A stretch of 64,000 nucleotides of DNA. It comes from Blastomyces gilchristii SLH14081. Taxonomy: Eukaryota; Ascomycota; Eurotiomycetes; Onygenales; Ajellomycetaceae. The position numbers and the translations under genes are program-made. The notes under the pieces were generated by a model. The model was not told where the DNA came from and ran no database searches. It saw only the letters and a list, made by a program, of their open reading frames with translations. The DNA is taken from the NCBI RefSeq assembly GCF_000003855.2, contig NW_003101676.1:2924796-2988795 (forward strand), read 5' to 3'. Shown here piece after piece: positions 23,119-56,778 of this stretch (its first letter is position 1; the number at the start of each line of letters is the position of its first letter).

Positions 23119-26100
23119 TTACTTCGTCCGCTCACGAATCTGCCCGGCAATACTCGATTCCGGCATATGCAGATCCCCCTGCTTCACCATCGGCACCAGC
23201 AGTGTCTGCGGACTCTTAACCTTAACATGCTGCGTCGCCCACGCCTTCTGCCGTTGAATCCCACTCTGAGCAAACGAAACAGCCTCCACAAATTGTTCAT
23301 CCCAGATGGCCATGCTTGCCGGCTGCAGTCCCGTCAAGTGACCCTCGATGTATGTACGTGAGGAAGACATCCAATGACTGCAGCGCTTCTAGAGGCTCAT
23401 ATGGATCGTTCGTATAAGTCTTGTGGAAGAAGATGGCGTCGCGAAGCCGCTGTGCGACGGAGCGCCCATATTCTCGGTTCTCGTGATATTTGTCGATCAG
23501 GGGCTGGAAGGTTTGGAGGGCTTCGGTTCACGATCTGACACATGACGCCAAGACCTGATTGGACTTCCAGGTCGTGGACGAGTCGGGGAATCAGATCTCT
23601 GTACATTTCTATGAGCATTTCTAGTGCCTCGTGTGTCACGCCCATCCATCGCTCAGGGAAGCGTAGGCGTTGTTGTGATGGAAGCTCCGTCGCGTGCTGG
23701 GCCGAACCCTGGTTCTTTTCGATATTCTCAACTGCTCTGGTCTGCTCTTCTTTGGCATGTTTGGTCCGTTTGCGAGTGCCTTCCTTTTGGACACATTTCT
23801 CGATGCAGACGGCTCCGGACTTGAACATTTGTTGCTTGGAGATGATGTCCCATTGCTCTAAGTTGAGTTAGCATTGATCTTAAACCTCTTGGGTAGGCTT
23901 AAAAAGCCAAATGATGATACAGATTCATAACTTACCAATAGTTAATTCATTTGCCGCACGAGCTCTGTCGTCCTTACCATCAAAGTAGTCAAAATGGAAA
24001 GGTATGAACACATGTCCCTTGGCGATATCGCGGATGGCGACTGCTAACTCAACACTGCCGCGGCGCGACCGCCCAACGACATCTCCCCGTCCGCTAGATG
24101 TAAAGCTTTCGCGTCCACCCGAGAAATATGAATGACTGGCTCTGGGTCTTGCATCCTGAAGCCGCTTCGAGCGTCCAGTCTTTGTCCGTGTGTGGAAATG
24201 ATAGACATTTCTTCCAGTGGTCAGATGAAGAGAGTAACTACTGGTCGGCCTACCACTTCAATGGGTGGCTTGTAGTGAGCTGCTTTCAAAATTGCTCTGC
24301 CTCCAGGATTCATTCCCATGTACTGTTGTTCCGTGTAGGGCGCGCCGGTCTCCAGATCATGTCCGAACGACTCGCAGTATTGCGCGTCTGTGAAGAATTT
24401 GACATCTTCTAACAAACGTTCTTTGCCATGGGGATATTCTGCTGTGCATGGCCACTGTATCCCCGACCCCCCGGTCAATTTATCATATGACAAAGCGCTG
24501 CAGTCCAGCGGGCGGCCGAACGACATCCGCTTCCATGCTTCAAACACCTCTTCAAAATGCGTGTACGGAATGAACGGCTCGCCATCTTCATTCCTGAAAT
24601 CCATTCTCTTTGCAAAGTCAAGTCAGATATCCAGGTCGACTTTGGCTTCGCCGGTAGGGTCCACTGCTTTCTGAGATAGATGCATAGTCCGATCAGCGTT
24701 GGTGAAGCATCCAGTCTTACCTTACCTCCCCATTGAGCTGCGGGGAGAACCACATCTGAAAAAGCTGCAGTTTCTGTTAGGAAGATATCTTGCGTCATCA
24801 CAAATAAGTCTGGTTTAGATAATAAATTCCGAATCCTGTGTAGATTCGAAAGACCGACGAGCGGATTGGTTCCGGAAATCCAGAACATTTCAATGGAACC
24901 ATTTCAATGAAGCTGAGCATGTTCCGTCTATGAGCTGGCTAGTTCCAGTGAGGCATTTGGATCGTGTTGATGTTCCAAATATCAGCTATTGCTTGCATAT
25001 GTTTAGGATTCTGGAAGTTCCGAAATCCTGGGATCTCCACATCGCAACCAGTCTCGCGGTTGTTCTGCGTCGTGGGGTGTCCGTTCATCTAGAGGATCCC
25101 GCTACCAGGCTTACCGATCTTTCCCAACAGGAGGTTGATTTTATTGATCTGACAGGGGCTGCCAGTAGCTTGGTTGGACCCATAAACGCCCTGAAGCGCG
25201 GTAGACAGTAGAGAAGGAGTGGTTCCAATAATTTTCGCAGCTTATTTCAGCTTTGCCTTGGGGACGCCAGTAATTTTTTCCACGTAATCAGGTGTAACTA
25301 TACTTATCCACCACCTTACGAAGAGCATCTATGCCCACCACATGCTTCGAAACGAACTCCCAATCGATCCAGTCATTTTCAAAGAGTAGATGCTGCAGGC
25401 CATTGAACAAAGAAAGATTTGTCCCGTTCTTGGCTGCTCTGTGGCTCTTGTTGCCGTTTCCGATTTTCTAGGATCGGCGACAATGAGCGCTGGTGGGCTG
25501 GGGCCGTCCAGACGGTGACCATCGCAGCCGAAAGATTCCCGCATGCAGGCCGCAGCGGTTGCTGTACATAGACGGGTATTTCCATCTCTGTTTGAGATAT
25601 ACTTAGTTGGTCTTGACAGCCGGGAAGGGTTTTAAATCAAGGGACTATGATGGATGATGCACGTACATGTGCAATGTATTCAAACCGGCCTTGCCAACCA
25701 TTGCAAAGACGTAGTATTCCCCCAGGAACAGCTGTCCAGAGGCATAAAACCCAATGCCGTGGTTCGTCAACCGTGCTTGGACCTCCTTTGTTTTTTCGAA
25801 AATTAATAACATGGCTTCATCCCATGAGGCTCGCTGGAGCTTTCCATCTCGACGTATAAGCGGGTATTTGAGACGATCAGGGTGGTTTATGGAAACCCAG
25901 CTGCACACGACAAAAGTCAGCAGCGGAAACCTTTGAAGAATAGTTCCGGCCAAATAATGAGGACGATAATAAAAAAAGAAAGAAACAGTTGAATAGAATA
26001 GTAATCTGCTCATCCATTCAGGCCCTTTGGGCCCAGTCTCCCCGGACACACGCCCGCGCACCCTGACCACTTTTCCATCTTTCACTCCAATATCCAACCC

Positions 26101-26280
26101 ACAGCCATTGCTGTGAAGGAATGTTTTAATCGGCGAATGAACACCCTAGAAAACTCAAGAGAAAGGTTAATAATATAAAGATCCCCATCAGGAGTCTCGG
26201 TGAGATGGTCGTCACGTCGTTGGGGCCAGCCATGTTTGTATGGCTTGCGCGCACCCCATATGTCCTTGATAGAGTCGTGA
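23119..26280 (-). pseudogene. Decayed bis-MGD molybdopterin oxidoreductase (prokaryotic nitrate-reductase-like)
   Basis: DMSO-reductase-superfamily enzyme of the NasA/NarB-like group common in bacteria. Order from the N-terminus: KDIWGARKPYKHGWPQRR (26270-26215), HSNGCGLDIGVKDGK (about 26110), WDEAMLLIF, then a 79 bp intron 25588-25666 leading to GNTRLCTATAA with the probable molybdenum-ligand Cys, NLSLFNGLQHLLFEND, TPSLLSTALQGVY, TNPLVGLSNLHRIRNLL, DVVLPAAQW, GGSGIQWPC, TGRNVYHFHTRTKTGR, a 78 bp intron 23858-23935, EQWDIISKQQMFKSG, and a helical C-terminal region with ERWMGVTHEALEML. Lesions: an in-frame loss of roughly 35-40 codons after ESFGCDGH; stops at 25242-25244, 25089-25091, 24939-24941 and 24623-24625; a CTTAC tandem duplication at 24716-24725; several further frameshifts. 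Only one Cys of the CxxCxxxC cluster motif is visible. Substrate unknown. Confidence 0.88.
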
Positions 26281-26610
26281 GGCTGGTTTGGAGCCGCTGT
26301 CTCTGTCTCTGTCTCTGGTTGGTGTGTCTTTTTCCAGATAGATTACATCACGGATCGCTAGATATTCAAATCAATTGCATCTCTCAAGGCCGTAATTGAT
26401 GTTGTGATGCACAGTCAAAGTGACGATCGATATTTAGTATGTACAATGGATCTCTTTGATAACATAAATATAGTAAGCCAAAGACGTCTCTCCCGTCAGA
26501 ACCCAGCGCCTAGAGCCCGCTTAATCTTCGCCTTCATTGCGCGTGAGTTGCTCTCAATTCATCTCTCTGCACGACAAGTACTGGCCTTCTGCCATGTCAA
26601 GCGATTTGAA

Positions 26611-27631
26611 ATGTCATCAACGTCGTGGCAGAGTGATATTCCCAAGTCCGACACGTTTTCTGGGTCTACGAAGCTCGAGGTTAAAAGACTTGCGGGAGAT
26701 CAGTGTTGGGCGTGCGGTGCTCCCAATCCCCAAGTCTGCCATGTGTTTGGGAAAGAGGATCCGCAGGTGAGTAAACAATGCCTCAAATATGGATCTAATC
26801 GGAGATGGGGTAATAAATAATTTCCTACTACCGCTACAGATACAACTAAATATGGTACAATGCAATCTCATCCACTTTGACTTAACCTCAGCCGAGAATG
26901 GGATCGCACTATGTGCAGGCTTCCACGTCCAGTTTGACCAGACGGCTGACCCCGGATTTGTTTTGTTACCTGTGGACTTGCAGTACTTTATTGATGTTGA
27001 GCTTGATGATATTCAGGAGAAAAAGCTTGCATTGAAGAATGGGAAGGATGTCGATGTCCACCGAAGAGTCCCAACAGTTGTAGAATACAAGGCCCACCAG
27101 CACAATGATGGAAAGGTCCCTGCCAACGCAAGTGGAGGATTGTACCGACCAAATTTTCTACAGAACTACCTAGTTGGCGGTCGCCTTCCTTCTAATGTAC
27201 TAAATACCCTCTCAACTCCAAAACAATGGCACGGCGCGCCGGTGGCAACACTCCGACGGGGAATACTGGTGTTAGGGGGTGGTCGAGTACAATCTCTGGA
27301 CGCAGAAACTCGCTCACAACTTGAATTGCTTCAAAATTTGTACTTCCTGAATGATGAAGAGTACTCCCCAGCAGACTATAGCAAGTAGATGCAGTCAGTA
27401 GTGTAACGGGGGCAGAAGAGATCCCTAGATGATGAATAGGGTAGACCAAATAAGTTGCCAAAGCTCAACAATTTAGAGTATGAGTTGGAAAATAAGAGTG
27501 CGGATGAAGACATCACTTCCCGGCGATGTCCCCCTGATGCTATTAACGCGCCCCCGCAGTTGGGTATTGGGACCCGGCCTGACCGCGGAGGAGGCAGTAT
27601 TGCGCTACGCTCCCTGTTGTCTCACAAGTGA
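26611..27631 (+). CDS. HNH-endonuclease-domain protein
   Basis: Fungal HNH-domain protein of unknown role, about 295 aa. Exons are 26611-26766, 26840-27384 and probably 27445-27631. The zinc/HNH signature is QCWACGAPNPQVCHVFGKED, then FDLTSAENGIALCAGFHVQFD split as FDLTSAENGIALC and FHVQFD, keeping Cys pairs, the Asn and both His. GFVLLPVDLQYFI follows, as in this family. Without the third exon the frame stops at 27388; the 60 bp intron 27385-27444 continues it in phase for 61 residues ending GGGSIALRSLLSHK. The start is ATG 26611; an in-frame ATG at 26407 is possible but its stretch looks non-coding. It lies inside the decayed molybdenum locus but shows no stop or frameshift, so it is probably independent. 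Confidence 0.7.
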
Positions 27632-28343
27632 GAGATTTAGAGTAAATATTTACTGTCTTTTTCCTCTACCACCCTGAGCGGTCATTCTGATATACCAAAC
27701 AGCATTCCACCTGTTGAACTCAAATGCCCACCCATATCGCATACATGCATACTGGTTTTGTAAGTGGTCTCGATATTGTAGTAATTCTAATATTTTACTT
27801 CTTGCATGCTCTAAAGGTTGTTGGGGGGTATTTGAACACGGCGCGCCCCCAATTTGATGCCAAAAACTGCAAAGTTAGACGCGCCAGAGGAAGTTTTACA
27901 AAGAACGTTGGGATGCAATGAGAAGGAAGGTTCGTTCCACGGATATAAATCAATGATAGTCACTTACTGTGTGGTCACCCTCCCCCCGGCCACTGACGTA
28001 TATCAAAAATGGGATTGTGGAAAAGACAATTGAGACATGATGGTTTCATTTTCAAAAAAAAAAAAAAAAGAAAAAGAAAAAGAAAAAGAAAAGAAAAAAC
28101 TTCTTTGTTTCTGTTTTCTTCTGTTGAAAAAATTGAGAAAATAATCCCATTAGCGGCAGGTAGACAAATCATATTAACATCTATTCTCACCCAACACAGT
28201 CGCACACTGAAAAAAAGGGGTAAATCTACAATTTTACCCCTATTTGTCGCCATACGTAAAACATCAACAAATAGTCCTCTGCGCTGCTATATATATCCAT
28301 ATATATATGATTCATCCCGTAAAATAACTTTCCACAACCCCAA
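27632..28343. other. Intergenic with an A/G simple repeat
   Basis: No gene. A poly-A run followed by AAAAAG units lies at about 28054-28098, and a run of TATATA-type sequence at about 28288-28310 just upstream of the mobA relic. Confidence 0.5.
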
Positions 28344-29187
28344 ATGCCTCTCCAGGCCCTCATCCTCGCCGGCGGCCAGTCATCGCGCATTGGAGCGCGC
28401 AAGGAACTGCTCCGGCTAACGAGCAATTCGCCACCGCTTTTCCTGCACCTTGCGCTGGTTCTGAAAAGAGCATGCCCGGAGCTGGATGTGGTTCACGTCT
28501 CGTTGAAGGACCGGACCGGGACGCTGTATCTGATGTACTGCAGGCATTGAGGGAGCAGGCGGGACATGTGTACTCTCTATGGCCGGAGGAGTCCTCCAGC
28601 AATGGATGTTGTGTTGTCATTTCACACTCTTCCCCGGGCTACAGCTGCGCAAGTGGTGGGGATGATGGTGGTGGTGATGGGGATGACATGATAATGTCAG
28701 GAGCAAGATAGCCATCAATTTCCGATTCGTATAAGATGATAGCCCAGCCGCAGAAAACGAAAATATCTGTGCCCCAAACCGAAAGTCAGCGTATAACGAC
28801 ATCGGGCCCCCGCCGTGGCCCTCCTGGTGGCTCACACCAGTGATCCGGCCTCAATATGGCTCGTGGTAGCATGGGATTTCCCCCTCCTGGCTCCTCGTGC
28901 TGTACGGTGCACGGTGCTTGCGCGAGCAACACTTTACCACCGGTGTCGATGGCACTTTTGGTTCTTCTTCCTCTCCTTCTAGGCGACAGACCTTGACGTG
29001 CTACCGCAATGCGCAGGGCCACTACGAGCCCCCGTTCGCCATATGGACGCCTGCGGCTCTTGGGATCTTAGATGCCAATATGAAGTGGGGTAACACGGGT
29101 CCGCGGATTGTTATTCAGGAACTTGATTCCAGAGGACTTGGGGAGTTGAGGGTGGTGGTGGTGGTGGTGCCGCGGGAGGAAATGTAG
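28344..29187 (+). pseudogene. mobA: mobA-like molybdenum cofactor guanylyltransferase, frameshifted
   Basis: MobA attaches GMP to molybdopterin to make the guanine-dinucleotide cofactor used by prokaryotic DMSO-reductase-type enzymes. The N-terminal nucleotide-binding motif LILAGGQSSRIGARKELLRL is intact from the ATG at 28344. After VVHVSLKDR the homology moves to another frame (DAVSDVLQALREQAG, about 28510-28560), then to a third with AVALLVAHTSDPASIWLVVA and WDFPLLAPRAV at about 28805-28895, and finally to CYRNAQGHYEPPFAIWTPAA and NTGPRIVIQEL at about 29000-29120. The Asp of the family's VxxCDxP-type motif is kept although the preceding residue is Trp. No single intron scheme explains the frame changes, since the first shift falls within a few codons. 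Part of the decayed molybdenum locus with the genes on either side. Confidence 0.8.
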
Positions 29188-29304
29188 TTGTTAAATGCGA
29201 AATACGATCGAGGAGTGCGGGGACGCGGTGAGGCTATTTAGGGAAGGGGTAGGGAAAAATCTATAAGGATGGAAGCTATAGTTACAGGTTATTAATTATT
29301 ACAG

Positions 29305-30498
29305 TTAGATGTCCGGCTTTAAAAATAAGCCATGGAATAAAGCACGCCCTCCTCCCATCAGGGGGTAAATATCAACACCATCCCCCCCATGAGCTCTGCA
29401 CGATCCGGGTGGATATGCATGCACCCGGCAATCCGCGCCCAGGAATGGCCTAAGTTTACCGGAACTATGGTCTACAACGATGCCGACCTCCATTGCACAC
29501 TGGTCTCCTCGAGAAAGCACTTCCCCAGCACAAAATACGTCGTTATCCGCTGGAAATGATGCAACCAATTTTCTATTCGCAGGGATACCATTTAGCATAT
29601 TAGCGCCATCGTCTCTGCGTGTACTTTCCTTTGCTTCATTCAGTTTATCAGGATGATTATTATTCCTGTGTTGGTGATGTTCCACGAGAGACCGGATTAT
29701 GCCCCGGACAGGCTGTTCAGATGGTTGCGACATCAGCGTGCGAAGATATGGCACGACGAGAAACTTAAGGCAAGCAACACTGGCGACGGGGTTTCCGGGT
29801 AGACCGAAGAATGCAACTTTTTCCTCTTCTTCCCCTTACTTTCTCTTCTTCCTTGTTCACAGGGTCAATGCCATTGATCCAGGAGTAAAAGGAACCATCG
29901 CGAATAGGGCAGGATGGCCCGGCCGCATGGCAACCCTATGGAAAATTATAGAGGCATTCAACCTCTTCAGTGCTTCAGGGATGAAATCGAATTTGCCCAC
30001 AGAGACGCCGCCGGTGGTGATGAGCAAGTCATACTACCGCCTTCCCTGTCGTCCCTGTAGACGGGATAGAATCTTCTCAGCTGCAATCTGGCCGTTATCC
30101 TCCATCGCCCCAAGAAAGTCCACGTCGCACCCTTGCGCTTCTAACACTGCGTAGATAAAAGGGCCATTGACATCCGGGATCCCAAAGTGACCACGACCAC
30201 GATCACCAATACTACCACCACAATAATTGATCAGCTTCGACTCAGTTGAGAAGACACCCACACGCAGCCTCCGCAAAACCCTCACCGTCTCAACTCCACC
30301 GAAGCCAACGCCATCACATGCGGTGGGCGAATAACCGCATTTTCCTCAGTGATCACGTCCCCCTTCTGAAAATCTTCCCCCTTCAGCCGCTTATTCTGAT
30401 TAGGCCTCGCGGGTTTCAAGACACGGACGGCACGCAGCAGTCGAAGGGGTGTTCATCCCTAGCAGGAGCACCGGCAGCAGCAGAAGAAGAAGAAGAAG

Positions 30499-30529
<31 letters not shown>

Positions 30530-30868
30530 GGGCGGAAACCTAGCTCCAGTCATAATTTCCACATAGGGGTATACCCCCTTCTGGCTCTGCGGATAATATA
30601 TCCAGGGGAGGGGCTCATCGCCCGCCGCGATAGTGCCTTTGACGGCAAAGATGACGGGATTTCCGGTCATTATCAGAGGCAGTCCTCGTTGCCTTTGAGC
30701 TTAATGTGTAGCCATCCATGGTGGATGGAGTCCCATTGTGGTGTAGAGAGGGGCGAGAGATGGGTGTCTTTTGATATGCGGTTTAGGGCTTTGTGCGGAG
30801 GAGGAAAGGGAGGATGTCGCGGCCTCCGCTTTGACGAGGTGGATGGCTTCTTTGTACAAGTTACTCAT
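29305..30868 (-). pseudogene. moeA: moeA-like molybdenum-insertion protein, frameshifted
   Basis: MoeA inserts molybdate into adenylylated molybdopterin. In eukaryotes it is normally fused to a MogA-like domain (CnxE/gephyrin); here it stands alone, as in bacteria. From the ATG at 30868: LYKEAIHLVKAEA, TMDGYTLSSKATRTAS, then another frame with FAVKGTIAAGDEPLP and GVYPYVEIMTGARFPP, a run of serines from a GAA repeat (30482-30528), GEDFQKGDVITEENAVIRPP, FSTESKLINYCGGSIGDRGR, GIPDVNGPFIYAVLEAQGCD, a TAG stop at 30034-30036, DLLITTGGVSVGKFDFIPEA, MRPGHPALFAM, FFGLPGNPVASVACLKF, and the C-terminal domain to 29305. At least three frameshifts and one internal stop are visible. It converges with the mobA relic 117 bp away. 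Confidence 0.85.
30482..30528. repeat. GAA trinucleotide microsatellite inside the moeA relic
   Basis: About 15 perfect GAA/TTC units in 47 bp. On the minus strand they read as a serine run placed directly after the conserved EIMTGARFPP motif, in a region where MoeA needs an ordered domain, so the expansion probably followed loss of constraint. Confidence 0.9.
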
Positions 30869-31473
30869 GGATTGGATATGCGAGATACCAGATATTTATG
30901 AATGTATGTACAAAAGGAAGCCGTTTGCTGAGAGGGGTTTAGCAAATAACTACAATATATCTTTTGCATGTTAATAGTTCTGATTACTATGGCAGCCCTG
31001 ACAGCTCTCTCGACGGATGTTCCTTGATGATTTTTGTAGGAGTGATTGTGACTTTGTGACGGCGGGGGAAGGGCATCGATCGCCGGGGCACCAGAGCAGG
31101 TTTACTACGGAGTAGAGTAACTTACTCCACTAAGTTACAGGGCTAGCCTAGCTAGCTACGTAGGTTAAGCTAGTTAACTAGTTAACCTTATGGTAAGTTA
31201 CTGTACATAACACACTCTCCGTTTCAGATTCAGGAAGTGTTTCGGATTTCTATTTTCTTCTTGGCTGGAGGGGTGGAAATAAATAAATAGAACTAAGTAT
31301 AAATAAAATAATATAAAAATAGTTAAATGTTGGTATCTCATGTCACATTCCAAACACGCCCCCAAGAAACAAAACAAGACAAAGAATAGATAAGTATATC
31401 GTAGGTATCATGTAGAATGGTAATATTTATATAAAAACAAAATATAATAATATAATAAAAATAATAAAAATAT
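30869..31473. other. Intergenic with a fold-back sequence
   Basis: Flank of the moeA relic and 3' flank of the GNAT gene. Apart from the inverted repeat at 31117-31201 and an A/T-rich stretch at about 31275-31325, nothing is recognised. Confidence 0.4.
31117..31201. repeat. Short fold-back sequence (GTAACTTAC ... GTAAGTTAC)
   Basis: Nine-base arms at 31117-31125 and 31193-31201 are exact reverse complements and enclose further small palindromes (GCTAGC, GTTAAC, AGTTAACTAGTTAAC). The motif AGTTAACTAGTTA recurs at about 54397-54409 beside the large inverted-repeat element. It may be a very small non-autonomous element or only a palindrome-rich spacer. Confidence 0.4.
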
Positions 31474-51400: not shown

Positions 51401-53818
51401 GTAGCGCCCTCGGGCAGACACTCTTACCAGAGAGCTTGCGTAATGTGCAAGGACAGCAAGGGAAGACTCATAGGTCAACTTTGCGCCTGTGCTGTGGATG
51501 GTGAAAGAATTACGGTATCGTTCATTATCCAGAATCATTCCTAAATCATCACTACTACCTCGAATAATCCTGTCTTCGGGGAGAGCTTCGCAGAACCGCC
51601 GCATGATATTCTTGACGACGTTAGTCCACCGGTACGTATGAATTCCTAGTTTTTATGCCTCACCTCTGCTCGCTGGACCTCCTCGACACTTGATGAGTGT
51701 ATAAGATTATCTCGTTCCACCATATGCGCGTACTACGGATTAAAGTTAGATGGGAATGCCAAATCCTGAGCAGAACGTCATACTATAGAGTGGGAATGTC
51801 GAGCTCGTCCACGGCTTTGGACATACTGAATCATGGTCGAATTCAGATCGAACCTAGGACCAAGGTGAGTCTCATACTTTTTGCGGATGTAAGGGATTGT
51901 TCTCACCTAATAACCAGGTTGCAATCTGGTATATCCAGTCCCTCTTCAGCAACAGAGGTTGCAAACTTCACCCGTTAGAAAAGCGAATAATATCCTCTTG
52001 AGAATACGAAAACTCCAACAAGCGTACCAGGCAATTGAGCTCCCCTTTGCGAAACTTCAACAGTGTCAAAAACTGCTGCCGGAAAGAGAAGTTTGCGCCC
52101 CCAATTCCGTCATGTCGGACCCCTATGAGAACCCCCGTTCGCATGTGCTGTGTTCCGATCCGAGAAAACAGTTCTGCTAACAACCTCGCTGTATATCGTT
52201 GCTGTATGAATACAATACATTTCGTGTCCGTGTGCCGTTCAAAGTACATGGAAAGCTCATGACTCAATAGTCGCACTTTCGAGCTCAGGTGTTCAGTGCA
52301 ATCAACCGGAGTATAAAAGGCGTGACTTTTGATCAACTGCGCAGCTTCTCGAAGAAGGTCAATCGCTTCGTCAGCTCCTTTGAGCTGATTTCCAGACCTA
52401 GACTGCATGTAGCTCTTAGAGATCTTGCCTTCGAGCTTGGGCAATTCTGCCTCGTCCAGAGCGAATGTCCACAGCCAATCCGAACACCATCTCCCCAGTG
52501 TCGAGCTTGCCTCCAAGGCAAACGAGAATATCTTTTCTAGTTCACGGATCCTGCCAAAACGTGATTGCATAGATTTGTACAACTCAGTCTCGGAAGGGTC
52601 ATCAAGTCTATCATATACCCACATCTGCTCATTTGGCCGTGGTATCGCTTGCCGCAAAGCATTTAGGTTGGACGCGGTTGCAATCTGACTGTCAAGTAGT
52701 GCCTCAAGAGTCCTAGTCAAAGGGGTTAGCTGAAATAGAAGTCATATGTCCCGTAGAGATACCGCACATTGCAGCTTTTACCACATCCACCTTCGCGTCA
52801 ACCGGCGATGCCGTCATTCCAAATATCTTGGGTCTGTTTTGAACTACAATCTTTTGCAAATAGAAGTCTTTGATAATCCTATATATCCCGTCAGCTCCGG
52901 TAGTAGGGTAGGTCATATATATTGGGTCTCCTTACCTGGCATACGGGTGGTCCTTTTTAGCATGATGGGCCTCGTCGAAAATAAGAAGATTGATCCGTTC
53001 CATTTGGATAAACGAACGGAGCAGACATTGATGTAGAACTTCGGCGGTACAGACAATAATCATATTCCTGGAGAAATGCTTGTCCCAGGTATCCTTGCTC
53101 CATAAGTCAGTCTGCATAGCTCCGCAGAATTTATCGATATTTTGATCAATATTTGCTTTCAAAACCGCGGCCTGTTGATATACTAGGGTAACGGTATCGA
53201 CCTAGTGACTAATTTTCAGATATTAAGCTACTCTCTAAACCCGGAACAGCCAGGACAAACCAGAAAGAATGATATACGAGGTGGTTTGCCATTGGCTCGA
53301 TCAGCTAATTCGTTTTGAATCATTTGCTTAAGCAAAAGCACTGCGATCAATGTTTTGCCCGATCCTATGAATGTTAATATCTATAGGAGAATGAAATGCA
53401 GCAAAAGACATACCCGTATCCAGTACAGCAATAGTATTCGCCGTCTTTGCTTTCTCAAAAAGTTCCAGCTGATACTCTCTTGGGTCATGGATAACAGAGG
53501 TAAAATCTTGTTTGTCAATTAAATTATTCATAGACAGCTCACTATCGTGCTTAGCTCTCGCTGCTCGTTGGATATCCTCCGTCATAATGGTTTCAGTTCT
53601 GCTGGACAGACTAAATAATAATACCGTCCATCAGAAAATGCAAGGTTCAGGGAATAAGGAGATACGCACAGCGCCTTGAATTTGGCATTTTGCTTCTGTC
53701 GTCGATGTTCTGCGTTCAGCGGAGCCTGATCAGAGTTTTCTAACTCGTTATTTGATCCCTCTGGTCCTGAAGCATCATCATGCCTCCCGGCGGTCTGGTC
53801 TATATCCATGGCACTCAT
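48452..53818 (-). CDS. dcl1: Dicer-like protein 1
   Basis: RNase III enzyme that cuts double-stranded RNA into small RNAs for silencing; 1525 aa. Fifteen exons from the 5' end: 53818-53670, 53610-53414, 53364-53261, 53201-52936, 52878-52768, 52712-52028, 51965-51907, 51853-51784, 51732-51664, 51610-50300, 50247-49847, 49782-49278, 49225-49040, 48978-48826, 48763-48452, with introns of 49-64 bp all in phase. Helicase motifs: [51 protein letters not shown]. Two RNase III signatures follow: [14 protein letters not shown] (about 1080) and [14 protein letters not shown] (about 1277). A C-terminal double-stranded-RNA-binding segment with [14 protein letters not shown] marks the Dcl1 rather than Dcl2 class. 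The start is ATG 53818 (MSAMDIDQ); ATG 53809 is also possible. Intron 49783-49846 has an unusual GTCCGT donor. Confidence 0.93.
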
Positions 53819-54446
53819 CGCTGCCCCTGCCTTATTAATCACCTTGTCCTGACACGAGCTTGGAATGGAGTCGGGACTAGCCGCAGTGCAGAAGGTTACC
53901 TATCTTGAAGGGTATAGAGCAAAGGAATAGAAGATTCTGTGCCGCAGACGTGAAGGAGGGGGGAAAGTACTGTACCTAGGTACAACAAGTAGTGGACGCT
54001 ATTCGATGGATTTTTGAAAACAGTGAAAAGAAAAGATAGAAAAGAAGTCTGAGATAAAGTCAAAGAATAACATTAAATAAATTGTAGCTTTATCTAAAGA
54101 TAAGCAAACAAAGCAGTATGTATCAGTATCAGCTGCAGGAAATGTTGGACGACTAACTACACTGTGTTTGCTGTCGTGATTAAAGAACATCAAAGCGGGA
54201 AATAACATAAAAATATGTTTAATCTCACTAGCTGAGCGGATACATACACCATATTCATCGGAATATGCACCTTATGAGAACAGAGTATGGCAATGCAGGT
54301 TAATAGTTAATGAAGGCTTGAACCGTGAAGTTGCCCCGCACATACGCACGCATAGTATGTCTAGACACATTTGTCACTGTAGACTGCCGTAATATTAGTT
54401 AACTAGTTACCTAGGTAACAAGGTTAGAAGGTTACCTAGATAACTA
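53819..54446. promoter_or_regulatory. Dicer upstream region
   Basis: No gene. The distal part (54390-54446) is rich in GTTAACTAGTTA-type palindromes and adjoins the inverted-repeat element. Confidence 0.35.
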
Positions 54447-55381
54447 ACATAATCAACCACCTAACGCTCGTTTCCACCTAACGCTCGCCTTTGTAAATCA
54501 ATTACAATCAACTTTAAATGTTAATATCTCAATAAATATTCATTATTTTAATTTTTTAATTTGTAATCTATAAATATCAAGACTTATAGTATAATATAAT
54601 TTAAAATTATTATAATATAGTTAAAATTGATTAAAATATAGATTCAATTAGAAAATAAAATACAGTATAATAAAATATATAATATTTTATTATAAATTAA
54701 GAAATATGTATTATATATTATTGAAAATAATAATTCTTATATAAATATATTATAATTTAATAAATATTAAATTATTTTATATAAGAATTCTATATTTTAA
54801 TTTTTAAGAATTTTTTTATTTTTTTATTATAATTTTTTTTATAAATTACAAGTAAAATATTGAAAACTCTTGAAATTTTAAATTTTGAAAAATAATTTAT
54901 TAAATATAAATATATTTAAATAATTTAATATAATAATTTATTTAAATTACAATTTTAAAGTATAATACATAGTTATTACAAAAATAGTATTTTAAAATAT
55001 AAGATTTTATATAAAAATTTAAATAAATTAATAATAAATAAGAATTTCAAGATAAAATTTTATATTTTATTAAAAATATATATAATCTATAAGATATTTA
55101 ATTTTTATATGAAAATAATTTATATTTATAAATATATTTATAAATATAGACTGTGTATTTTATTTTAAAATAATATTTTAAAAAGCTTAATAAATTAATA
55201 ATTATATGTTATTTTCTCATAGAAATTTAATATAATATAATATATATCTATGAATTATTGTTCTGTTTTTTAGAATAGTTTTAAATAAATATTCATTGAG
55301 ATATGAATATTTGAAGTTGATTGTAATTGATTTACAAAGGCGAGCGTTAGGTGGAAACGAGCGTTAGGTGGTTGATTATGT
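54447..55381. mobile_element. 935 bp AT-saturated element with about 100 bp terminal inverted repeats
   Basis: The left end (ACATAATCAACCACCTAACG...) and the reverse complement of the right end are identical for about 70 bases, to about 54515 and 55313, then agree at most positions to about 54545 and 55283, with mainly C/T and G/A differences. TA dinucleotides flank both ends (54445-54446 and 55382-55383), as after Tc1/mariner insertion. Each arm contains a tandem CCACCTAACGCTCG repeat. The roughly 740 bp core is almost only A and T, has no CpG and no open frame. It is probably a non-autonomous or internally mutated DNA transposon lying between dcl1 and the Tap42 gene. Confidence 0.85.
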
Positions 55382-55538
55382 TAACTAACTCATCACATGA
55401 CCCCGATCTCCCGCATGGGGAAAGTTCACAAGCAACAGCAGCTACAGCTACACACATTCTAACAGCGATATCTCTCATTATTAAGGACCTTCAACCTACC
55501 ATTACCTCCCGTATATACATGTTTCAGTAGCTTAAGCC

Positions 55539-56778
55539 ATGGATTCACAGCCCGAAACCCTCCACGCCCTCTTCTCCCGCGCAAAATCCCACAGGAAAGC
55601 TCTAGACTCACCAGAATCAGAAGATCCCCCACCTCTTGGCGACGTGATAGCAGAATTCGAGGAATGCCAACGGCGCATTGCCCAGCTCTCCCTCTTCAGT
55701 ACCAATGAATCATTAGATGATGTTACCACCGGGGACCTACAGTGCGTAATCCTGTCTATGTTCTAAATTATTATTATTATTATTATTATTTTTATTTTTT
55801 TAAGGAGCAAGTGAGGCTAAGAAAATGCTCCAGGTACCTGACCGTTGATTATATCCTTGCCGATCTTCTCCAAAAGTCATACGACACCGACCGTCTTAAA
55901 AGTCTCCAGCGGTCGCAGGACGAATATGAAAAGTACCTAGAGAGCCTAGATCAATATGGTCTCCTCTCACCGGAGGACAAGAAGCTCTACGAACGATATA
56001 CCGAGAACCCCCGCTTCTTCAGCATAGCTCCATTAAATGATGCAGCGGCGCGGAGAAATATCAAAGTATCCAGGTTTCGAGATGAAAAGGAGCTGAAGCA
56101 GCGGCTAGAGGTATATATGAACTATAATCCACTCCGTGTTTGTCTCTGACTCCTCCGATTGTACTCGTGCTAAATATGACTTCAAAAATTGGGCAGTATC
56201 TTTCACAAAGCCAAAACAGCTTGCAAGCCGATGAAGATCTAGCTCGACAATTATATCTAGCTGAAATTAAACTCTATACACACCAGACATTCCAAGCCCT
56301 GGACATGTTATCACAGGAACTATCCATGCTCGCAAGTGCGCAGGCCGCCGCCCCACCCACCAATCCCGTTCACAATAATGATCCTAGACTACGCAGCCCC
56401 AGTGATTCATCGGGCTTTTCCGATCGATTGGATGTAGGACTCGCCCAGAATATTCGTGGGGGGAGGACAGGGCCTCTTCTAAGCAAAACCGGCGTACCAC
56501 TACAGCCATTCGTTCTCACAAGTAAACGCACGGAAATTCGAAAAGGAGTTTTCCGACCCGGCCACAACCTCCCAACCATGTCGATTGATGAATATCTAGA
56601 GGAGGAAAAGAAAAGGGGAGGCATCATTGAGGGTGGTGGAGAACAATCCGGCCAGCCAAAGGAAATTGACGAAGATGATATAGAAAAGGCCGATGAAGAA
56701 ACTATGAAAGCAAGGGCGTGGGATGAGTTCACCGAGGATAATCCGCGAGGGTCCGGTAACACCTTGAACAGAGGCTGA
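55539..56778 (+). CDS. TAP42: Tap42/alpha4-type PP2A-associated protein
   Basis: Binds catalytic subunits of type 2A phosphatases in the TOR pathway; 353 aa. Exons are 55539-55741, 55834-56110 and 56197-56778. The first intron contains an ATT microsatellite (about 55768-55798), the second joins LKQRLE to YLSQSQNSLQ. The N-terminal helical domain (YLTVDYILADLLQKSYDTDR, EYEKYLESLDQYGLL) and the conserved C-terminal tail ETMKARAWDEFTEDNPRGSG followed by NTLNRG identify the family. TMSIDEYLEEEKKRG is the typical linker before the tail. Only 156 bp separate its start from the inverted-repeat element. Confidence 0.93.

Follow-up and report, generated by a model that had tools for sequence, protein, structure and literature searches.

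As far as we know, the bis-molybdopterin guanine dinucleotide (bis-MGD) form of the molybdenum cofactor is confined to bacteria and archaea. The Mo/W-bisPGD enzyme family is described as exclusively prokaryotic in part of one published account (PMC10609526), and part of another names MoaB and MobAB as exceptions and gives MobA as lacking a eukaryotic counterpart (PMC9370521). No report of MobA or of a Mo/W-bisPGD enzyme in a fungus was found in the open-access literature, in titles and abstract openings among the matches listed. Here we describe three decayed genes of prokaryotic type in the fungus Blastomyces gilchristii (genome 74.8 Mb, 75 contigs). They lie at positions 23122-30880 of a stretch of 64,000 nucleotides (2924796-2988795 of the 3.2-Mb contig C7), which is called the window below, and comprise an oxidoreductase of the dimethyl sulfoxide (DMSO) reductase superfamily, a MobA-like guanylyltransferase and a stand-alone MoeA (Table 1). 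A sequence-only reading of the window had placed these three genes within 8 kb and had regarded all of them as lost. Profile and tblastn matches bear out the first statement, and the broken state of all three genes bears out the second. The three broken genes suggest that a fungal lineage once used the cofactor form of bacteria and archaea.

Table 1. Features of the decayed molybdenum locus and the open reading frames within it (positions in the window)
Feature	Positions	Strand	Evidence or remark
Mo/W-bisPGD (DMSO reductase superfamily) oxidoreductase pseudogene with C-terminal helical tail	23122..26276	-	Pfam, NCBIfam, tblastn; 15 collinear pieces
Mo-ligand motif piece DGNTRLCT, ligand Cys retained	25518..25586	-	Cys in 40/40 family members, 4/4 outgroups and the window
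Canonical spliceosomal intron, 79 bases, GTACGT...ACTAAG...CAG	25588..25666	-	Flanks join in one frame into LNTLHIDGNTRLCTA
Canonical spliceosomal intron, 78 bases, GTAAGT...GCTAAC...TAG	23858..23935	-	Flanks join in one frame into AANELTIEQWDIISKQ
C-terminal part and helical tail, fused	23122..23857	-	Hymenobacter tail ORF matches 23445-23194, 2.8e-5
MobA-like molybdenum cofactor guanylyltransferase pseudogene	28344..29187	+	PF12804 1.2e-6
Stand-alone MoeA pseudogene	about 30880..29308	-	MoCF_biosynth 2.6e-23, MoeA_N 2.2e-5
HNH-endonuclease-like open reading frames (ORFs)	26362..27388	+	Between oxidoreductase and MobA; HNH_2 0.012 (weak) in 26771-27388

The pieces of the oxidoreductase are broken by nine frameshifts (junctions with a change of frame and at most 8 bases between pieces) and four internal stops. 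An additional change of frame, from 26184 to 26118, might be either an intron or a shift. Two of the pieces exceeded the PF00384 cut-off (2.6e-11 and 2.1e-8), which assigns the gene to the DMSO reductase superfamily, and the NCBIfam models of formate dehydrogenase alpha and NasC matched pieces as well, with values as low as 4e-15. When the intact relative from Halomonas sp. KO116 (WP_035556002.1, 942 amino acids) was used in tblastn, six stretches spanned most of the gene (best linked E 2.9e-139). The motifs SNGCGLDIGVK, DGNTRLCT, MNGxPTxQNxRE and FHTRTKTGRS and the tail are common to this protein and the window. The cysteine of DGNTRLCT is, judging from solved relatives, presumably the molybdenum ligand. 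Directly after the piece that carries it, near 25503-25518, 33 alignment columns (about 100 bases) are gone. The former enzyme would presumably have bound bis-MGD.

Ascomycete introns follow rules for the donor, the branch and the acceptor, and both introns of the oxidoreductase show donor, branch-like and acceptor sequences of this type. Both interrupt conserved stretches, and the readings obtained by joining their flanks agree with the bacterial relatives. A third possible intron, from 26014 to 25893, lacks a normal donor. When aligned with 40 relatives and four outgroups, the gene in the window kept the consensus residue in 166 of the 218 columns that were at least 95% conserved, compared with 219 of the 482 other columns. 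The retention of these near-invariant residues, together with the two canonical introns, leads us to infer that the oxidoreductase functioned as a nuclear gene in the fungal lineage before it decayed.

The MobA-like gene has an N-terminal nucleotide-binding motif, and its first piece scored 29.2 bits with PF12804 against a cut-off of 27 (27.2 bits with its neighbours in the whole-genome search). Three pieces matched MobA models in the right order, covering 178-230 and 252-291 of one model and 282-325 of another. Being fragments, they all stayed under the cut-offs of the full-length models (3.9e-6, 0.0036 and 0.047). The first piece had five NCBIfam matches below 1e-3, all of them molybdenum cofactor (Moco) nucleotidyltransferases (four MobA-type and one cytidylyltransferase). 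No other PF12804 match was present among the best candidates of the whole-genome family search. Against plasmids, pieces 1 and 3 gave no match and piece 2 only E values of 0.7-5, one of its eight matches being the NTP-transferase gene of a Komagataeibacter Moco cluster. Two Persicobacter stretches with weak matches carried no annotated feature and were left out of the trees. The MobA remains were too short for placement in a tree.

The MoeA gene matched MoCF_biosynth when three stops were read through, and it also matched the end of the MoeA_N model. Further changes of frame accompany these three inner stops of the main frame. A long trinucleotide tract (30482-30528) lies within the remains. 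The gene stands alone in that no MogA lies beside it, contig C7 having a single MoCF match versus two around the MoeA frame on contig C14, where the fungus's own CnxE is located. Our MoeA tree contained 38 distinct sequences in 39 rows (one was entered twice): CnxE, eight sequences from plasmids or other loci, and 30 loci of 23 genomes that bear the oxidoreductase. The window MoeA joined two MoeAs of a metagenome-assembled genome (MAG) of Deltaproteobacteria, G001, with a FastTree support of 0.993 and an ultrafast bootstrap of 94. It was 34% identical to these and 27% identical to CnxE, the sole eukaryotic sequence in the tree, from which it was separated in a grouping of bacterial type.

Relatives of the oxidoreductase are numerous in bacteria. 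A plasmid search with a one-frame reading of the gene (X at stops) gave 40 records, and 15 of the 25 matches listed were annotated as nitrate reductase. The fungal gene differs from these in bearing introns and in being broken. The genome scan found at least 575 relatives; the best 80 loci were kept and five plasmid loci were added. At 79 of these 85 loci the oxidoreductase ORF reached 730 amino acids or more. These 79 ORFs were used in a first tree, and the window gene was 42-51% identical to their products over up to 728 columns. Among viral contigs, none of 130 pattern-matching stretches encoded a relative. The helical tail is fused to the bacterial enzyme in Halomonas and encoded by a small adjacent ORF in Hymenobacter, Deinococcus and Rhodococcus. 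A separate tail-like ORF was present at 63 of the 85 loci, and the fungal gene has the fused form.

Four intact relatives stayed under every NCBIfam cut-off for nitrate reductases or formate dehydrogenases; with formate dehydrogenase alpha (TIGR01591, cut-off 666.25) they reached 492-525 bits. Assimilatory nitrate reductases of the NasC/NasA type have four Fe-S cysteines. In the 40 relatives the fourth of these positions is Gly (36) or Asp (4), and it is Gly in one of the four outgroups. At the first three positions 34 of the relatives have Cys, and the remaining six all have Ser, His and Asp. In the window, the first position is not covered, the second is His, the third Cys and the fourth Gly. 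Formate dehydrogenase alpha has His after the Mo-ligand residue. All 40 relatives and the window have Thr there, but this is a weak comparison because the FdhF outgroup row itself has Gln in that column. On these scores and residues, the bacterial family is a distinct type outside every curated model.

MobA-type genes were found near the oxidoreductase at six of the 85 loci and MoeA genes at four; oxidoreductase, mobA and moeA occurred together at four (L025, L057, L068 and L073). Locus L025 (JACQAW010000098.1) belongs to the Deltaproteobacteria MAG named above. Within about 10 kb it carries a moeB-like gene, mobA, moaE, moeA, the molybdate transporter gene MOT1, moaA, the oxidoreductase and an HPP gene. 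It resembles the fungal locus in having the three genes in one stretch, and its MoeA ranks with those most similar to the window MoeA. It differs in the additional moaA, moaE, moeB-like, MOT1 and HPP genes: references for MoaA, MoaE, MOT1 and HPP, as well as for FNT, FdhD, NarK and NirB, had no match in the window at 0.01. The other three loci are from Microbacteriaceae (Curtobacterium and Naasia), in which mobA and moeA follow the oxidoreductase within about 2 kb. These Microbacteriaceae genes likely form a dedicated cofactor unit. The trio is uncommon and occurs in two unrelated bacterial groups.

We consider a lost, horizontally acquired bis-MGD branch the best reading of the locus and give it a probability of roughly 70%. 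An ancestor of the fungus would have taken up a bacterial set in which a cytoplasmic Mo/W-bisPGD oxidoreductase was accompanied by MobA and an unfused MoeA, and arrival as one cluster is the simplest form of this event. Molybdopterin would have been supplied by the Moa and Cnx enzymes of the fungus. The additional MoeA might then have inserted molybdate, and MobA might have added guanosine monophosphate to yield bis-MGD. The oxidoreductase would have used bis-MGD and an Fe-S cluster, probably reducing nitrate or a similar oxyanion. Later the whole branch would have been lost, with the genes of the ordinary molybdenum pathway retained. The sequence-only reading had called the system complete. 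That description is slightly too strong, as neither a dedicated transporter nor genes for the early steps were seen in the window. Because both are missing there, transport and the early steps would have depended on the fungus's own genes.

Several observations weigh against this reading. No intact fungal copy was seen, fungal protein collections lying outside the scope of the search. The nearest MoeA by identity was not the one in the cluster of G001 (0.337) but a paralogue on another contig of the same genome (0.343). In the FastTree analysis the window oxidoreductase stood beside locus L077 with a support of 0.786, and in the IQ-TREE analysis (40 relatives and four outgroups) it fell together with L077 and L025 at the family's base, where a support of 47 did not resolve its position. 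Placement of the oxidoreductase is thus ambiguous, and a common donor for it and MoeA is therefore unproven. Only four of 58 genomes in the class of G001, G001 included, had an oxidoreductase match at 1e-80, and the three besides G001 were only 32-39% identical; the oxidoreductase is therefore patchy in bacteria too. The four intact relatives reached 352-459 bits with NasC and NasA, whose cut-offs are 1000 and 1100, and one Fe-S cysteine position of the window gene is occupied by His. The two later pieces of MobA are weak, the gene is on the strand opposite to the oxidoreductase with the HNH-like ORFs between them, and the linked trio was found at just four of 85 bacterial loci.

Some of these points favor the alternative that survives best: separate transfers from different bacteria brought in the three genes, which were gathered later, as in fungal metabolic gene clusters. 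The ambiguous oxidoreductase tree, the orientation of MobA and the rarity of the bacterial trio all fit such a history. However, the sister sequences of the window MoeA come from a genome that carries mobA and moeA in linkage with its oxidoreductase, and such trios exist in two unrelated bacterial groups. Because the linkage is found in both groups, one transfer is simpler, and we consider separate acquisition unlikely, although it deserves more weight than any other alternative. Within the reading of a lost, horizontally acquired branch, we lean towards a single transfer of the linked set, which is unproven. The suggestion of the sequence-only reading that the genes had been acquired as a unit was therefore upheld only in part. 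The linked bacterial trios and the separation of MoeA from CnxE agree with it, but the oxidoreductase tree did not settle the matter and MobA could not be placed. An actinobacterial donor, hinted at in its proposed check, is not supported: the window MoeA grouped with the Deltaproteobacteria MAG, and the MoeAs of L057 and L073 were distant in the tree and about 24-25% identical to it, although Microbacteriaceae carry the linked trio.

A further possibility is that only the oxidoreductase is foreign, MoeA being an old duplicate of CnxE and the PF12804 gene another kind of nucleotidyltransferase. The MoeA domain of fused proteins such as CnxE, Cnx1 and gephyrin carries out molybdenum insertion, and the window gene shares this domain. 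It matched the fungus's own CnxE at 2.7e-22, its best solved relative was plant Cnx1, and the weakness of the later MobA pieces also fits this idea. Unlike the fused proteins, however, the window MoeA is alone and groups with bacteria, and the fungus has its own CnxE on C14. The tree parted the two and joined the window copy to G001 with high support, with CnxE as the sole eukaryotic MoeA, and every NCBIfam match below 1e-3 for the first PF12804 piece was a Moco nucleotidyltransferase. We thus regard this explanation as improbable.

Slightly less probable still is the idea that bacterial DNA was inserted by chance, had no function in the fungus at any time and merely decayed. In its favor, all three genes are broken and an intact copy was absent from the genome searches. 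However, the oxidoreductase is interrupted within conserved stretches by two canonical introns, and its near-invariant residues were preferentially kept. The introns require a period of use after arrival and therefore disfavor a passive recent insertion. That the locus is bacterial contamination, or a living gene misread in sequencing, could draw on the bacterial affinity alone and is hardly credible. The stretch contains introns and sits within a 3.2-Mb contig with fungal housekeeping genes on both sides. Moreover, the adjacent dynein-like ORF of 4281 codons is unbroken, so that the error rate does not account for the nine frameshifts found within about 3 kb.

The former substrate could well have been nitrate or a similar oxyanion, by analogy with the annotated name of the bacterial relatives and with a gene for a membrane protein of the HPP family, which was found in the neighborhood of the oxidoreductase at 25 of the 85 loci (24 within 3 kb). 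These counts are lower bounds (64 of the 85 loci exceeded 15 kb, and few reference proteins were used). We take HPP proteins to be nitrite transporters. Genes for formate/nitrite transporters, FdhD and NarK were found at two, two and one of the 85 loci, respectively. The enzyme would then possibly have catalyzed the same reaction as fungal NiaD of the sulfite oxidase family, whose molybdenum fold is unrelated to the DMSO reductase type. PF00174 identified three loci. One of them (C2:532-533 kb) resembles NiaD and has dimerization and cytochrome b5 domains and a putative reductase part. No nitrite reductase (NiiA) was seen in the genome, where PF01077 and PF03460 matched only a sulfite-reductase-like locus at C14:234587-235633. 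Because these families show no nitrite reductase, nitrate assimilation may be lost altogether from this genome, although the NiaD-like gene is there.

With regard to the ordinary molybdenum pathway, PF03453 and PF00994 located, besides the window copy, an apparent MogA-MoeA fusion (CnxE) on C14 with an uninterrupted MoeA frame of 614 codons. PF00994 also gave a short additional match on C2. A MoaA-type gene is present on C19, and one HPP-family gene lies elsewhere on C7. The whole-genome PF00384 search found, among its best candidates, no DMSO-reductase-type gene besides the window exons and NDUFS1. The latter, on C21, was rejected as a second enzyme because it is the complex I subunit. It scored 1187 bits with a chain of 7zm7 and 974 bits with one of 6gcs, which we take to be the complex I chains of Chaetomium and Yarrowia; this order agrees with a filamentous ascomycete.

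Decayed, intron-bearing genes for an enzyme and its cofactor in a fungus mean that the prokaryote-only rule has or had an exception. If the reading is true, a eukaryote possessed a second molybdenum cofactor pathway, and the question whether bis-MGD is made and used by a eukaryote becomes testable. The lasting value of the observation hinges on intact fungal copies. We see about an even chance that some living fungi hold intact oxidoreductase-mobA-moeA clusters and make bis-MGD for the reduction of nitrate or other oxyanions, the window representing a lineage that lost the cluster.

Repeat-induced point mutation (RIP) was considered as the cause of the decay and rejected: no RIP signature was evident, because TpA/ApT was 0.55-0.59 in the three broken genes versus 0.59-0.68 in three intact neighbors. 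The HNH-like ORFs are probably unrelated to the molybdenum system. No HNH match was found in 26362-26820, and an intron is likely within 26362-27388. On one side the locus is flanked by Svf1 and ribosomal L11, the only proteins recognized among 45 ORFs from gene-poor stretches of the window (76 ORFs on the list). On the other side are the long unbroken ORF, which reads as a dynein heavy chain, and genes for Dicer, porphobilinogen deaminase and Lon protease. A GNAT ORF also belongs to the flanking genes. An AT-rich block with 32% GC (53400-56000) lies beside the Dicer gene.

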